Assembly (NCBI GenBank): GCA_016200125.1
Contig: JACQFK010000403.1
Coordinates: forward strand, 1 to 26,540
Origin: Planctomycetota bacterium
GTDB taxonomy: Bacteria; Planctomycetota; MHYJ01; JACPRB01
Direction of reading: 5' to 3'
DNA: 26,540 nucleotides
The notes below the pieces were generated by a model. The model worked only from the letters and a program-made list of their open reading frames with translations. It searched no databases and was not told the DNA's origin. Positions 1,011 through 26,540 of this stretch are shown piece after piece. Position 1 is the stretch's first letter, and every line of letters begins with the position of its first letter. The position numbers and the translations under genes were made by a program.

Positions 1011-2438
1011 CTACGCGAGGATCGCGTCGATGCGGTGGCCGTGGACGTCGGTGAGACGCCGGTTGAGGCCGTTGTGGTACCAGGTCACCCGCGTGTGCTC
1101 CAGGCCCAGCAGGTGCAGCACCGTGGCGTAGAAATCCCACACCGTCGCGATCCGGTCCACCGAGCGGCGGCCGAACTCGTCCGTGGCCCCGTGGCTGACG
1201 CCGCCCTTCACGCCCGCGCCCATCATCCAGCAGGTGAAGCCGTCGGGATTGTGGTCGCGGCCCTGCGTGCCCGCCTGGTGCGTCGGCATGCGGCCGAACT
1301 CGGTGGTCCAGAGGACGAGCGTCTCGTCGAGGAGGCCGCGGCGCTTGAGGTCGCTGAGCAGGGCCGCGGTGGGCTGGTCGAAGACCGGGGCGTGGCGTTC
1401 GTAGTCGGCCTTCAGGGTCTTGTGGGCGTCCCAGTTGAGCAGCCCGTCGACCCCCGAGGCGCGCGAGGCGCAGTAGAGGTTCACGTAGCGCACGCCGCGC
1501 TCGAGGAGCCGGCGCGCGAGCAGGCAGTTGCGGGCGTAGGAGGCCTTGATCGGATTCGGATCGGCCGTGCCGTATTCCTTCTGGATGCTGTCCGGCTCGG
1601 ACCCGAGGTTCGTGACCTCGGGGGCCGACAGCTGCATCCGCGCGGCGAGCTCGTAGGAGGCCATGCGGGCCTGCAGCTCGCTGTCGCCCGGATGGGCCCG
1701 GGCATGGCGGGCGTTCTGACCCGCGAGGAATTCCCGAAGGGCGTCCTCCGACCCGGGCGCCGACTCCTCCGCCGGGCGCAAATTCCGGATCGGCTGATGC
1801 TCCGCCAGCACGATGCCCTGGTGCTCGGCGGGCAGGAAGCCGTTGCTCCAGTTCGCCTTCCCGTTGGGCGGCTCGCCGCGCAGATCCGGAATGGCGACGT
1901 AGCCGGGCAGGTTCTCGCTCTCCCGCCCCAGCGCATGGCTCACCCAGGATCCCGCCGCGGGAAAGCCTTCGGTAGCGTGGCCGGTGTTCATGAACACGCA
2001 GCCGGGACCGTGCGTGTTGGTCTTGGAGACCATCGAGTGGATGAAGGCGATGTCGTCCGCGTGGCGCGCCATGTGGGGCAACAGGCTGGAGATCCGCTTC
2101 CCGCTGCGGCCGGCCGGGACGAAGGGCCAGGGGCTCTTCATGAGCGCGCCGTTCTTCCCCTGGAAGGAGACCATGTTCTCCTCGCCCGGCAGGGGCTTGC
2201 CGTCCATGCGCTCCAGCTCGGGCTTGTGGTCCCAGAAGTCGACGTGGGAGACCGCGCCGGGGCAGAAGATCTGGAGCACCCGCTTCGCGCGCGCCGGGTA
2301 CTGCGGCGTGCCCCGCCCAGGAGTCCAGGCCGGCGGCTCCTGCGCGAGGAGGTCGCGGGCGAGGAGGCTCGCCAGTCCGACGCCGGCGAGCCCCGTGGCG
2401 AAGTCGCCGAAGAAGTCGCGCCGCGAAATAGCGTCCAT
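1011..2438 (-). CDS. DUF1501 family protein, Tat-exported
   Basis: A 475-residue member of the DUF1501 family, which is related to the alkaline phosphatase/sulfatase fold and greatly expanded in Planctomycetes; its biochemical role is not established. The N-terminus carries a twin-arginine type signal, SRRDFF at residues 5-10, followed by a small hydrophobic stretch ending near LLAQ (30-33), so export in the folded state is likely. Family-typical stretches are visible: the early [17 protein letters not shown], the HGPGCVF segment and the late TTEFGRMP...GRDHNPDG region. The gene starts seven bases after the stop of the cytochrome/DUF1553 gene, the usual order for this pair, and the two products are thought to work together. 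It is the last gene of the gntR operon. Confidence 0.92.
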
Positions 2439-2445
2439 CCGGTCC

Positions 2446-5196
<2,751 letters not shown>

Positions 5197-5215
5197 CAAG
5201 GTTCTCCGGTCCTGA

Positions 5216-5914
5216 TCAGCCCGACGTGACGACGGCGGCCTTCCCGAACAGCTCCCGCTCCAGGACGAAGGCGGCCGACTCGAGGTGGCGCCCCATCGCC
5301 GCCGCGGCGCCGTCCGCGTCGCCCTTCGCGAGGGCCTCGACCACCGCGAGATGCTCGGCATTCTCCTCCATGCGGGAGAAGTTCGACCGCGCCGTCCGGC
5401 GCTGGTGATGAAGGTCGCGCAGGGTGCGGTAGAGGATCCGGTAGCGGCCGAGCTCGCTGGCCAGGCGCTCATTGCCGCAGCGGGCGGCGATGAGCTCGTG
5501 GAGCCGCGAGTCGAGCCGGCGGGTCTCCGCGGACCAGCGGGCGTCGCGCGGGGAGCGGATCTGGCGGGACAGGGCGGCCGCCAGTTCCTGGAGCTCGACG
5601 GGGGCGATCCGGCCGCAGGCGCAGCGGGCGGCCTCGGCTTCGAGGACGCGCCGCAGGTGGCAGATCTCCCGGAGCTGCCGGGGCCCGAAGGGCAGGATCA
5701 CGGCCCCCCGGCGCGGCAGGAGTTCCACGACGCCCGCGCCCGCCAGCTCGACCAGCGCCTCGCGCACCGGCGTGGCGCTGACGCCGAGCTTCCGGGCCAG
5801 GGGCCCGACCTTGAGCCGTTCGCCCGCCGGCCGGCGCCCGCCGAAGACGTCGGCCAGCAGCGAGGCCGCAACCCGCGCGCGCCGGGACCCGTGTTCGACC
5901 TCCGCCAGGGGCAT
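5216..5914 (-). CDS. GntR-family transcriptional regulator, FCD (FadR) type
   Basis: A 232-residue regulator. Residues about 10-72 form the GntR winged helix-turn-helix; the recognition helix region reads LGVSATPVREALVEL and the wing is around LLPRRGAVIL. Residues about 80-215 form an all-helical FCD effector domain. The usual metal-site pattern is present: Asp135 and His139 (LDSRLHE), His188 (ENAEHLA) and His210 (MGRHLE), so a carboxylate ligand bound through a metal is likely. The gene is first in an operon with the cytochrome/DUF1553 gene (19-base gap) and the DUF1501 gene, and is divergent from dapA. It probably controls its own operon and perhaps dapA through the palindrome at 5939-5962, which lies at the expected -35 position of gntR. 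The effector is unknown. Confidence 0.92.
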   Translation of the reverse strand: MPLAEVEHGSRRARVAASLLADVFGGRRPAGERLKVGPLARKLGVSATPVREALVELAGAGVVELLPRRGAVILPFGPRQLREICHLRRVLEAEAARCACGRIAPVELQELAAALSRQIRSPRDARWSAETRRLDSRLHELIAARCGNERLASELGRYRILYRTLRDLHHQRRTARSNFSRMEENAEHLAVVEALAKGDADGAAAAMGRHLESAAFVLERELFGKAAVVTSG

Positions 5915-22869: not shown

Positions 22870-23700
22870 ATGCGGCGGGCGATCATCGCGGCAACGCTGC
22901 TCGCCGCCTCCTGCCGGGAAGGGGTCCCGGATCCGATGACGCCCGACCCGGAGGGGACGCGGCCCATCGCCGCCCACCGCACGCTCTTCATCGAGGAAAT
23001 GACCTGGATGGAGGTCCGCGACGCCCTCCGCTCCGGCATGGACAGCGTCCTGGTCGCCGCCGGCGGCATCGAGCAGAACGGGCCCTACGTCGCGACCGGC
23101 AAGCACAACTACGTCGTCCGCGCCGCCGCGCAGACGATCGCAGTGAAGCTCGGCAACGCCCTGATCGCGCCGATCGTCGCCTTCGTTCCCGAGGGGGATT
23201 TCGATCCGCCGACCGACCACATGAAATACCCCGGGACCCTGGGAGTATCCGAGGAGACCTTCCGCCGCCTGCTCGTCGACGTCTGCTCGAGCCTCCGGAC
23301 CCACGGCTTCCGCCACATCCTCCTGATCGGCGACCACGGGATGACTCAGGACGGCCTCGAACAGGTCGCGGCCGACCTGGCGAAGAAGTGGACGGACGGC
23401 CGGACGAAGGTCCACTATATACCCGAGTACTACGACGACGACGTCGTGACCCCCTGGCTCGAGAAGCAGGGGCTCAAGCAGACGGACGAGGGCTTCCACG
23501 ACGACTTCATGATGGAAGCGCAACTGATGGCCATCGACCCGACGACCGTGCGGATGAAGCAGCGGATCGCGGCGGGGAAGTTCCGCATCAACGGCGTGGA
23601 GCTCGCCCCGGCCGCGAAGACGATCGAATGGGGCCGCAGGATCCTGGAGTTCCGCGCGGATCTCGCCGTCGCCGCCATCCGGAAGGCCATCGGTCGATGA
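22870..23700 (+). CDS. creatininase-family protein A, probable lipoprotein
   Basis: A 276-residue protein of the creatininase fold (the family with creatinine amidohydrolase, MftE-type peptidases and FAPy deformylase, all metal-dependent). A short signal ends in AAS-Cys15, a possible though imperfect lipobox. The usual first metal motif (E-x-H-G-x-H) reads EQNGPY here (68-73), so both His are replaced. The following KHN (78-80) sits where the family usually has an Asp. The second motif, usually NGHGGN, reads GDHGMT (154-159), keeping the His. HMKYPG (117-122) matches the family HxxFPG segment. It may use a changed metal site. It is followed within 15 bases by a close paralogue. Reaction unknown. 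Confidence 0.85.
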   Translation: MRRAIIAATLLAASCREGVPDPMTPDPEGTRPIAAHRTLFIEEMTWMEVRDALRSGMDSVLVAAGGIEQNGPYVATGKHNYVVRAAAQTIAVKLGNALIAPIVAFVPEGDFDPPTDHMKYPGTLGVSEETFRRLLVDVCSSLRTHGFRHILLIGDHGMTQDGLEQVAADLAKKWTDGRTKVHYIPEYYDDDVVTPWLEKQGLKQTDEGFHDDFMMEAQLMAIDPTTVRMKQRIAAGKFRINGVELAPAAKTIEWGRRILEFRADLAVAAIRKAIGR

Positions 23701-23714
23701 AGGAGGGAACTCTC

Positions 23715-24563
23715 ATGCGAAACTTCGCCGCCGCAAGTCTGGCGATCCTGGCCGCGGGACTCCTGTCCGCCGCGGTCCAGGACAAGAAACCCACCCCGAT
23801 GACCCCCGACCCCGACGCTCCGCGGCCCATCGCCGCCCACGAGACGCTGTTCGTCGAAGAGATGACCTGGATGGAGGTCCGCGACGCCCTCAAGGCGGGC
23901 AAGGATACGGTGATCGTCGCCACCGGCGGCGTCGAGCAGAACGGGCCCTACCTCGCGACCGGAAAGCACAACGTCGTGCTCCGCGCCACCACGCAGGCGA
24001 TCGCGGCCAGGCTCGGGAACGCGCTGATCGCGCCCATCGTGGCCTTCGTCCCCGAGGGCGACATCGACCCGCCGACCGGCCACATGAAGTACCCGGGCTC
24101 GATCAGCGTGACCGAGGAGACCTTCCGGAGCCTGCTGACCGACATCTGCGCCAGCTTCCGCACCCACGGCTTCAAGCACGTCATCATGATCGGCGACAGC
24201 GGCGGAAACCAGGCCGGGATGAAGAAAGTCGCGGCGGACCTGAGCGCCAAGTGGGTCGACGGGAAGACGCGGGTCCACTTCATCCCCGAGTACTACGACT
24301 ACGGCGGCCTCGCGAAGTGGATCAGGGAGCAGGGCATCCAGGAGGTGCCGGAGGGCCATCACGACGACTTCGCCATGGAGGCGCAGATGGCGCTCGTCGA
24401 TCCGACCACGGTGCGGATGAAGGAGCGGATCGCGGCGGGTAAGTACCGGATCAACGGGGTGGAGCTCGCGCCGCTGGAGAAGACGATCGAGTGGGGCCGG
24501 AAGATCGTGGCCTACCGGGCGGAGCTGACCGTGGCGGCGATCAAGAAGGCGATGGGACGCTAG
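23715..24563 (+). CDS. creatininase-family protein B, secreted paralogue
   Basis: A 282-residue tandem duplicate of the preceding gene; most residues are the same after the signal region. It has a normal Sec signal peptide (about 1-20, ending LLSAA) and no lipobox, so it is probably periplasmic or secreted rather than anchored. The first metal motif is again EQNGPY (74-79) with KHN after it. The second motif reads GDSGGN (160-165): here the His is lost but the GGN is kept, the reverse of copy A. I chose the ATG at 23715 because AGGAGG lies eight bases upstream; an ATG at 23697 overlapping the previous stop would put Lys/Glu before the signal. The 3' end overlaps folD by 23 bases. Confidence 0.85.
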   Translation: MRNFAAASLAILAAGLLSAAVQDKKPTPMTPDPDAPRPIAAHETLFVEEMTWMEVRDALKAGKDTVIVATGGVEQNGPYLATGKHNVVLRATTQAIAARLGNALIAPIVAFVPEGDIDPPTGHMKYPGSISVTEETFRSLLTDICASFRTHGFKHVIMIGDSGGNQAGMKKVAADLSAKWVDGKTRVHFIPEYYDYGGLAKWIREQGIQEVPEGHHDDFAMEAQMALVDPTTVRMKERIAAGKYRINGVELAPLEKTIEWGRKIVAYRAELTVAAIKKAMGR

Positions 24564-25401
24564 CCCGGCGCGCGCAGGCGGCGATGTTGCGCAGCAGGAT
24601 GGAGTGGCAGACGGGGCCCACGCCGCCCGGCACCGGCGTGATCACGCCGGCGATCTCCTTCGCCTCGTCGAAGACGACGTCGCCCACGAGCTTGCCGTCC
24701 TTGGTCTCGTTGATGCCGACGTCGATGACCACGGCGCCGGGCTTGATCATGTCCCCGCGGATCAGCCCCGCCCGGCCCGCCGCGGCGAACAGCAGGTCGG
24801 CCCGGCGCGTGTGGGCGCCGAGATCCGCCGTGGCGGTGTGGCAGAGCGTCGGCGTGGGCGCCTCGGCCTTCGACTGGAGCAGGAGCAGCGCGATCGCCTT
24901 CCCCACCAGGGCGCTCCGGCCCACGATCACGGCGTCGAGCCCCTTGAAGCTCGGCCGCGCGAGGCGCGCGAGCTCCACGGCGGCGCTGGCCGCGCAGGGC
25001 GCGGGCCGGTGCGCGCCGAAGGCCAGCCGCCCGAGGTTCTCCGGATGGATCCCCTCGATGTCCTTCGAGGGCGCGATCGCTCCCATCACCGCGTCCGGGT
25101 CGACTCCCGAAGGAAGCGGCGTGTGGACCGTGATGCCCGTGACCTGCGGGTCGCGGTTCAGGTCGCGGATGAGCGCGAGGATGCCCGCCTGGGTCGATCC
25201 GGGCTCGAGGGCGCGGACCTCGTAGGCCACGCCGGCCTCGGCGCAGGTCTTCTTCTGCGCACGCAGGTAGTAGCGCGCCGCCGGACTTTCGGGATTGTGG
25301 ACGGCGACGACCTTCGGCGGCGCGGCCAGCTGCTTCAGCTCCTGGAGCGCCGCGTCGCGCAGCGGCTGCGCGTCCTTCGAGGTCAGCAGCTGCGCACTCA
25401 T
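24541..25401 (-). CDS. folD: FolD-like methylene-THF dehydrogenase/cyclohydrolase with altered active site
   Basis: A 286-residue FolD family protein; the normal enzyme turns methylene-THF into methenyl-THF with NAD(P) and then into 10-formyl-THF. The NAD(P) domain is well kept (VIVGRSALVGK 158-168, VVIDVGIN 224-231, VITPVPGGVGP 253-263). In the catalytic cleft Tyr45 and Cys53 match E. coli Tyr50 and Cys58. However, the catalytic Lys54 is replaced by Gln49 (YYLRAQKK), Gln98 by His93 (TVHTPLP) and Asp121 by Glu116 (KDIEGIHP). The usual PCTP is PCAA (135-138). The start ATG overlaps the fhs stop (ATGA). By context it serves one-carbon metabolism; cyclohydrolase activity is doubtful. Confidence 0.9.
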   Translation of the reverse strand: MSAQLLTSKDAQPLRDAALQELKQLAAPPKVVAVHNPESPAARYYLRAQKKTCAEAGVAYEVRALEPGSTQAGILALIRDLNRDPQVTGITVHTPLPSGVDPDAVMGAIAPSKDIEGIHPENLGRLAFGAHRPAPCAASAAVELARLARPSFKGLDAVIVGRSALVGKAIALLLLQSKAEAPTPTLCHTATADLGAHTRRADLLFAAAGRAGLIRGDMIKPGAVVIDVGINETKDGKLVGDVVFDEAKEIAGVITPVPGGVGPVCHSILLRNIAACARRASVPSPS

Positions 25402-26540
25402 GGGTTCAGCCCGATCAGGTTGCCGTTCTCGTCGATGTCCATGCGCTCCGACGCCGGCTCCGTGGGCAGACCGGGCATCGTCATCACGTCCCCGAGGAGC
25501 GGATAGAGGAATCCGGCTCCCGCGGAGGCGCGGACCTGCTGGATCGGCACGCGGAAGCCCGTGGGCGCCCCGCGGAGCTTCGAGTCGTGCGAGATCGAAA
25601 GGTGCGTCTTCGCCATGCAGACCGGCAGGCCGCCCAGGCCCCACGCCGTGTAGCGGTCGATCTCCTCTTCCGCGCGGGGGGAGAAGTCGACCCCGTCGGC
25701 GCCGTAGACGTCGCGCGCGATCGTCTCGATCTTCTCGCGGACCGGCCGGGTGACGTCGTAGAAGGGGCGGCATTCCGAGGGGGTTTCGCAGGCCTTCGCG
25801 ACGGCCCGGGCCGCCGCCTCCGCGCCCGCCCCGCCCCGCCCGTAGGCTTCGATGATCTCCACGCCCGCGGCGCCCGCCGCCTTCGCGGCGCGGACGACGG
25901 CCTCGATCTCCCGCTCCGTGTCGTCCGGGAAGCGGTTGATCGCGACCACGGCCGGGACGCCCGCGCGCCGGACGATCCCGATCATCCGCGCGAGGTTCGC
26001 GCTCCCCTTCTCCACCGCGTCGACGTTTTCCGCCAGCAGGGCCCCCGGAAGGGGCCGGCCCGGCTTCACGCCGTAGCTCCCGCCGTGCAGCTTGCAGGCG
26101 CGGACCGTCGCGACGATCATCGCCGCGTCCGCCGCGAGCCCGCTCACCCGGCACTTGATGTCCACGAACTTCTCGAAGCCCAGGTCGGCGCCGAAGCCGC
26201 TCTCGGTGACGACGAAGTCGGCGCAGCGGACGGCGATCAGATCGGCGATCACCGAGCTGTTGCCGTGCGCGATGTTGCCGAAGGGCCCCGCGTGGATGAA
26301 GGCCGGCGTGTTCTCGATCGTCTGGAGCAGGTTGGGTTTGAAGGCGTCGCGCAGGAGCACCGCCATCGCCCCGGCGCCCTTCAGGTCCTCCGACGAGACC
26401 GGCGCGCCGTCCCGGCTGCGCCCCACGAGGATCCGGCCGAGCCGGAGCCGCAGGTCGTCGTAGGAGGTCGACAGCGCGAGGATCGCCATCACCTCGCTCG
26501 CGACCGCGATGTCGAAGCGGGTGGAGCGCTCGCCCTTCTC
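25398..26540 (-). CDS. fhs: formate-tetrahydrofolate ligase, C-terminal part
   Basis: The gene is cut by the window end; 380 residues are visible, about the last two thirds of the usual 550 or so. The reading frame stays open to base 26540 and reads FDIAVASEVMAIL there, a family-typical segment, so the GTG and ATG near 26490 are internal. The enzyme joins formate to THF using ATP, giving 10-formyl-THF. Clear family stretches are HAGPFGNIAHGNSSVIAD (substrate region), TESGFGADLGFEKFVDIKCR, VVAINRFPDDTE, and the end GDVMTMPGLP...MDIDENGNLIGLNP. It overlaps folD by four bases, so the two are co-translated. The N-terminal ATP-binding part is not visible. Confidence 0.96.
   Translation of the reverse strand, partial: EKGERSTRFDIAVASEVMAILALSTSYDDLRLRLGRILVGRSRDGAPVSSEDLKGAGAMAVLLRDAFKPNLLQTIENTPAFIHAGPFGNIAHGNSSVIADLIAVRCADFVVTESGFGADLGFEKFVDIKCRVSGLAADAAMIVATVRACKLHGGSYGVKPGRPLPGALLAENVDAVEKGSANLARMIGIVRRAGVPAVVAINRFPDDTEREIEAVVRAAKAAGAAGVEIIEAYGRGGAGAEAAARAVAKACETPSECRPFYDVTRPVREKIETIARDVYGADGVDFSPRAEEEIDRYTAWGLGGLPVCMAKTHLSISHDSKLRGAPTGFRVPIQQVRASAGAGFLYPLLGDVMTMPGLPTEPASERMDIDENGNLIGLNP

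Follow-up and report, generated by a model that had tools for sequence, protein, structure and literature searches.

The window analysed here, 26,540 nucleotides of a Planctomycetota contig, ends in two genes of one-carbon metabolism, a folD-like gene and fhs, the coordinates of which are collected in Table 1. The TGA stop codon of fhs overlaps the ATG start codon of folD (ATGA), and the same overlap is present at L001, a locus from a named genome. Since the start of folD overlaps the stop of fhs, fhs and FolD are probably made together. A gene for FchA, the separate cyclohydrolase, was not found within the 26.5-kb window. On its other side folD is adjoined by tandem creatininase-family genes, which probably arose by duplication, and at the far end of the window a DUF1501 gene lies next to a PSCyt2/PSD1 gene. 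Both of these latter gene kinds are common in Planctomycetota and the pair is typical there.

Table 1. Genes of the window and codons of the altered FolD residues
Feature	Position	Strand	Evidence or conservation
fhs (formate-THF ligase), last 380 aa, truncated where the window stops	25398..26540	minus	FTHFS 502.5 bits
folD-like gene (286 aa) encoding a predicted methylene-THF dehydrogenase without the cyclohydrolase residues	24541..25401	minus	
Gln49 codon (CAG), E. coli Lys54	25255..25257	minus	Gln in 119/120 nearest proteins, 1 gap
His93 codon, E. coli Gln98	25123..25125	minus	His in 120/120 nearest proteins
Glu116 codon, E. coli Asp121	25054..25056	minus	Glu in 120/120 nearest proteins
Ala137-Ala138 codons, E. 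coli Thr142-Pro143 (PCTP to PCAA)	24988..24993	minus	119/120, 1 gap
Cys265-His266 codons, E. coli Thr267-Val268	24604..24609	minus	Cys 111/120, His 101/120
Creatininase-family gene	22870-23700		
Creatininase-family gene	23703-24563		
DUF1501 gene next to PSCyt2/PSD1 gene	1011-5472		

The active site of the window FolD

The protein passes the curated cut-offs of both Pfam FolD domains (PF00763, 78 against 32.8 bits; PF02882, 176 against 27 bits), and its fold, predicted with high confidence, matches the solved FolD/MTHFD structures. The NCBIfam equivalog and subfamily models of FolD scored lower (best 248.5 against a cut-off of 421, and the best 25 of 30 all below their cut-offs), which is a weak test as it was made without a canonical FolD of the same phylum for comparison. 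The Lys54 of the YxxxK motif is absent, and Gln98 and Asp121 are likewise replaced. The first-pass annotation had read Gln49, His93, Glu116 and PCAA in the places of E. coli Lys54, Gln98, Asp121 and PCTP, with Tyr50, Cys58 and the nucleotide domain retained; alignment, ungapped between the sites, bears out the replacements, and alignment and structure comparison the retained parts. The same annotation had considered Lys50 or Lys51 as a substitute for Lys54. The HMMER alignments, ungapped between the flanking Tyr and Cys, exclude both. A second histidine proper to the subclade of the window, His266, lies in the pocket region and is aligned with E. coli Val268.

Mutants of human Lys56 and Gln100 were reportedly the subject of an earlier study. 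In silkworm MTHFD, a Tyr-Lys-Gln-Asp set plus a Ser is named as crucial in PMC6443876. E. coli mutants are described in PMC5688156: K54N keeps about 19% of the dehydrogenase activity with cyclohydrolase undetectable, and Q98H about 8% of the dehydrogenase and about 1% of the cyclohydrolase. According to the same paper, both changes arose in carolacton-resistant E. coli, Val268 is a carolacton contact, and methenyl-THF can convert spontaneously to 10-formyl-THF. As Q98H alone drops the E. coli dehydrogenase to so low a level, an efficient dehydrogenase with the window's residues must owe its activity to compensating changes elsewhere in the protein.

Distribution of the altered site

Gln, His and Glu are kept across the 120 closest proteins (54-100% identity) wherever the sites are covered, and their retention down to 54% identity indicates selection, not decay. 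Among named genomes the top match is a Planctomycetota MAG, 75% identical to the window protein. In 80 loci from named genomes, 62 carry Lys, Gln and Asp, the canonical set, and 18 are devoid of Lys54, with Gln in every case; Glu121 accompanies it in 17 of these 18, L009 having Asp. The full Gln/His/Glu/Ala-Ala set occurs only at L001. The records of the Lys-less loci name Planctomycetota (anammox bacteria among them), Armatimonadota, Elusimicrobia, Anaerolineales, Ectothiorhodospiraceae, Inquilinus and Rhodospirillaceae, with one further bacterium left unplaced.

Of 246 Planctomycetota genomes sampled, 223 gave a match to the window protein. Typing, carried out among the matches listed, took in 62 canonical and 88 Lys-less genes, 150 in all, which belong to 149 genomes; since 74 of the 223 genomes fall outside the typed set, the typed FolDs lean towards window-like ones. 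Position 121 separates the two types completely (Asp in 62/62 canonical, Glu in 88/88 Lys-less genes). At position 98 all 62 canonical genes have Gln and the Lys-less ones vary (Gln in 60, His in 9, other residues in 19), which is the pattern that a role of this site in the lost activity would produce. The columns that best separate both types include 49, 116, 138, 140, 118, 264 and 266, which fall within or next to active-site motifs, together with sites located elsewhere, such as 35, 91 and 30.

In a FastTree tree computed after removal of the trait columns, a single branch (support 95) sets the 88 Lys-less Planctomycetota genes apart from all others. Hence the Gln54/Glu121 exchange is old and shared, and His98 marks the part to which the window belongs, a clade of nine rows (support 87) that comprises the window, G001, G201, G189, G162, G234, G147, G116 and G212. 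Outside this clade, His98 is also found in the Lys-less genes of G096 and G291. The comparison with FolD families that the first-pass annotation had proposed, together with the tree, thus reveals not a single oddity but a whole clade that spans several phyla, with Gln54/Glu121 widespread and His98 mainly in the window's part. Many independent losses of the lysine find no support in the trees, which need just one or two changes: the switch between canonical and non-canonical occurs once per phylum tree and twice in the joint FolD tree.

Elusimicrobiota hold further forms. In 26 genes (L367-L368 and L374-L397) Glu stands in the place of Lys54 and Pro or Ala in that of Gln98, and in four (L366, L369, L370 and L372) Lys54 is kept, Gln98 is replaced by Glu and the PCTP motif ends in TA. 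These two groups may have left the canonical state on a second occasion, for which the joint tree, with two changes, and the Elusimicrobiota tree alone, with one, give different counts.

The positions that we take to bind the NADP phosphate (162, 189 and 190 in the window protein) are relaxed in Lys-less FolDs. Arg162 is found in 62/62 canonical and 29/88 Lys-less Planctomycetota proteins, and at position 190 the canonical proteins have Arg or Lys in 56/62 cases and the Lys-less ones Arg in 13/88, counting in both comparisons the top letters only. A shift to NAD is possible in such proteins; for the window clade, which retains Arg162 (117/120), a cofactor switch of this kind is not proposed.

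Separate cyclohydrolase genes in the same genomes

Genomes were searched with the FTCD_C profile (PF04961), which represents the FchA family. Matches were present in 196 of the 246 Planctomycetota genomes vs 2 of 14 control genomes. For the typed Planctomycetota genes, the genome contained FTCD_C in 83/88 Lys-less vs 35/62 canonical cases (Fisher p 2.8e-8, related genomes counted). In a second set, for which 19 of the 62 canonical named-genome loci served as controls, FTCD_C occurred in 14/17 Lys-less vs 4/19 canonical genomes (p 6e-4), a comparison in which phylum is a confounder, since Planctomycetota supply 10 of the 17 Lys-less genomes and none of the 19 canonical ones; five of the other seven Lys-less genomes have FTCD_C. 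The three second-set genomes with a Lys-less FolD and no FchA (Jettenia, an Ectothiorhodospiraceae and a Rhodospirillaceae MAG) encode two or three FolDs each, at least one of them canonical.

The 79 Elusimicrobiota genomes, with 81 genes, show the same association. FTCD_C accompanies 46 of the 49 non-canonical genes vs 1 of the 32 canonical ones: 16 of 17 FolDs of the Gln..x..Glu type (the exception, G286, has a second, canonical FolD), 26/26 of the Glu..Pro/Ala..Asp type, 4/4 of the Lys..Glu..Asp type, and neither of the two odd FolD copies of G352, a possibly incomplete genome in which FchA is absent. The lone canonical genome with FTCD_C, G342, carries FTCD_N and FTCD_C in one open frame, like the FTCD of histidine breakdown.

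This last form is of importance to the counts, since those of the second set and of Elusimicrobiota may include FTCD-type proteins; the two forms were split for Planctomycetota, G342 and G352. FTCD_N was observed in 152 of the 246 Planctomycetota genomes, in a number of them outside an FTCD_C frame. When stand-alone FTCD_C is defined as neither fused nor next to FTCD_N, it is found in 50/87 Lys-less vs 9/62 canonical Planctomycetota genomes (p 8.5e-8); G014, G043, G040 and G167, where a weak FTCD_N is unplaced, enter these counts as stand-alone, though their FTCD_C may be of the other form. Of the roughly 37 remaining Lys-less genomes, 32 have only FTCD-type forms with fused or adjoining FTCD_N and five have none. 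A strict one-to-one rule, by which a Lys-less FolD needs a stand-alone FchA, therefore fails in Planctomycetota once the FTCD fusions are split off. In these genomes either the cyclodeaminase domain of FTCD, hydrolysis that occurs spontaneously or what is left of the FolD activity is enough, or the rule is looser. A second, canonical FolD was found where the Lys-less one lacks an FchA partner in G169, G254, G260, G263 and G286; G054, G092, G142 and G211, which may be incomplete genomes, have a Lys-less FolD with neither FchA nor canonical FolD. With only one change of the trait per phylum tree and two when the phyla are joined, related genomes enter the Fisher values as if separate, and independent-pair tests on the trees yielded one or two pairs only, with significance out of reach.

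Linkage of fchA, fhs and folD

In the sister group of the window (G234, G147, G116 and G212) the order is fchA-fhs-folD, FTCD_C and folD sharing a strand with FTCD_C ahead by 1816-1834 bases, so that fchA is linked to folD in four of the eight other genomes of the clade. G001 keeps fhs-folD, and in G201, where a contig ends, fhs likewise precedes folD. For G189 and G162 the 3.8 kb examined revealed no fhs next to folD, hence the fhs-folD pair is not kept clade-wide. Among the named-genome loci, L009 (Armatimonadota) has fhs-fchA-folD and L027 has fchA-folD; fchA was beside folD in none of the 62 canonical loci within flanks of up to 6 kb. In Elusimicrobiota, fchA shares contig and strand with 16 of the 17 Gln-type folD genes, with 33 bp to 7.1 kb between the matches and, in 15 of them, no more than 2.1 kb, as judged by eye. 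For Planctomycetota, among the matches listed, FTCD_C lies within 30 kb of folD on the same strand in 6/87 non-canonical vs 0/62 canonical genomes. The fhs-folD pair of the window is best seen as an fchA-fhs-folD operon from which fchA would have been relocated.

The first-pass annotation had suggested that a separate cyclohydrolase gene might exist in the genome. A search in G001, the 75%-identical relative, revealed a single FolD and one stand-alone FTCD_C, the latter on another contig. Stand-alone FTCD_C is likewise present in G201, G189 and G162; each of the four genomes also has a separate FTCD_N, and a cyclodeaminase role is therefore possible for their FTCD_C. The FTCD_C of G001 scored 108.7 against a cut-off of 275 with the NCBIfam FchA model, which was its sole NCBIfam match, and its best PDB match was FTCD, with FchA close behind. 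In a comparison of 76 FTCD_C rows, one of which (L429) gave no hit, the proteins of the four genomes formed one group (98), apart from the group with most folD-linked FchAs.

Function of the window FolD

The window FolD is probably a dehydrogenase only, its cyclohydrolase activity lost or nearly so and supplied by a separate FchA-type protein. Tyr45, the substrate pocket and the nucleotide domain would still support hydride transfer between 5,10-methylene-THF and 5,10-methenyl-THF. The step between methenyl-THF and 10-formyl-THF would be handled by the FchA-type protein, aided by spontaneous hydrolysis, and Fhs would join formate and THF into 10-formyl-THF. For the window's own lineage, this scheme would imply that its FTCD_C is a cyclohydrolase and not a cyclodeaminase. 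Dehydrogenase-only function beside a separate cyclohydrolase had been among the readings of the first-pass annotation, and it is favoured by the E. coli mutants, by the co-occurrence with FchA/FTCD_C, by gene linkage and by the gene content of G001.

The main competitor, though an unlikely one, is that the protein is still bifunctional, with His93, Glu116 and perhaps His266 replacing Lys54, Gln98 and Asp121 in opening methenyl-THF. The strict conservation of His93 and Glu116, with His266 in most of the nearest proteins (Table 1), would agree with such a role, as would the 37 Lys-less Planctomycetota genomes devoid of stand-alone FchA. Against it stand the nearly complete loss of cyclohydrolase in E. 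coli Q98H and the undetectable activity of K54N, and the fchA-folD linkage in a sister group that already carries His98. It is a good deal less probable that natural FolD inhibitors such as carolacton, produced by a myxobacterium, selected the change, with cyclohydrolase loss as a cost for which FchA compensates. The published carolacton-resistance changes of E. coli include K54N and Q98H, and the contact Val268 is His in this clade; the Lys-less clade, however, is wide, extending to Elusimicrobiota and anammox bacteria, and no tie was found between Glu121 or PCTA and such resistance.

The idea of another folate-like cofactor, also raised in the first-pass annotation, fares worse. That the substrate is another pterin, for instance H4MPT, is very improbable: Mch does occur in Planctomycetota (21 of 246 genomes), but in none of the eight other genomes of the window's clade, and in 2/87 typed Lys-less vs 15/62 typed canonical genomes, so the search gave no link to an H4MPT pathway. 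Moreover, THF is the substrate of Fhs, the product of the operon partner. Decay of folD into a pseudogene, which the altered catalytic residues might bring to mind, hardly deserves credence in view of the open frame, the sites retained in 120 proteins, the identical operon junction at L001, the high-confidence predicted fold and the fact that this is the sole FolD of G001.

From the preferred reading, dehydrogenase activity with a separate cyclohydrolase, a broader rule can be proposed tentatively, with rather more doubt than confidence. The letters of FolD would predict the cyclohydrolase provider across phyla: Lys54/Gln98/Asp121 would denote a self-sufficient enzyme, and any departure (Gln..x..Glu and, in Elusimicrobiota, also Glu..Pro/Ala..Asp and Lys..Glu..Asp) an FchA-dependent dehydrogenase. 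In the clade of the window the pocket would have been rebuilt with His93 and His266, maybe for an Fhs-FchA-FolD handover or for chemistry new to FolDs. Such a rule would correct many annotations, and would help to explain the retention of FchA-type genes in many Planctomycetota and Elusimicrobiota. A further prediction is that of bacteria whose FolD is naturally insensitive to carolacton-like inhibitors.

Comparison with known systems

The bifunctional FolD/MTHFD enzymes of E. coli (1b0a) and human (DC301, 1a4i) have the two-domain fold, Tyr50, Cys58 and the nucleotide domain in common with the window protein. They differ in that its near relatives replace Lys54, Gln98, Asp121 and PCTP, and all typed Lys-less Planctomycetota genes replace Lys54 and Asp121. 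The sources that name these proteins label them dehydrogenase/cyclohydrolase or bifunctional, and pathway reconstructions of one-carbon metabolism consequently credit a step that they probably cannot perform. The yeast monofunctional NAD-dependent MTD1 (PDB 1edz) would be a functional analogue, a dehydrogenase devoid of cyclohydrolase, as proposed here. Its match to the window FolD reaches E 0.0002 along a portion of the chain, and the structural comparison gives 22% identity. MTD1 has the active-site Lys and Gln replaced as well, by Thr57 and Tyr98.

Separate enzymes for the two steps are otherwise known from Methylobacterium, where MtdA is the dehydrogenase and FchA the cyclohydrolase, and Aluri is said to have dealt in 2016 with FolD, FchA and Fhs of C. 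perfringens. The FchA-FolD-Fhs sets of acetate-forming and acetate-oxidizing bacteria place a separate cyclohydrolase beside the dehydrogenase and Fhs; the likeness noted is one of gene set. An fhs1-fchA-folD set of this kind is described for T. acetatoxydans in PMC3584212. The principle is thus known; in the open PMC literature no description was found of a wide bacterial Gln54/Glu121 FolD clade tied to FchA as its dehydrogenase partner, or of a division between FolD and FchA according to residues. Further close counterparts are the E. coli Q98H (PDB 5o2a) and K54N mutants, altered at the same two positions and, in Q98H, to the exact residue of the window (PMC5688156). Those are laboratory point mutants with a weakened dehydrogenase, whereas the window shares its changes, along with D121E and PCAA, with a natural clade in which they have become fixed. 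Under the proposed residue rule, such natural enzymes would allow the two FolD activities to be told apart; in the papers cited these were studied with damaged point mutants.
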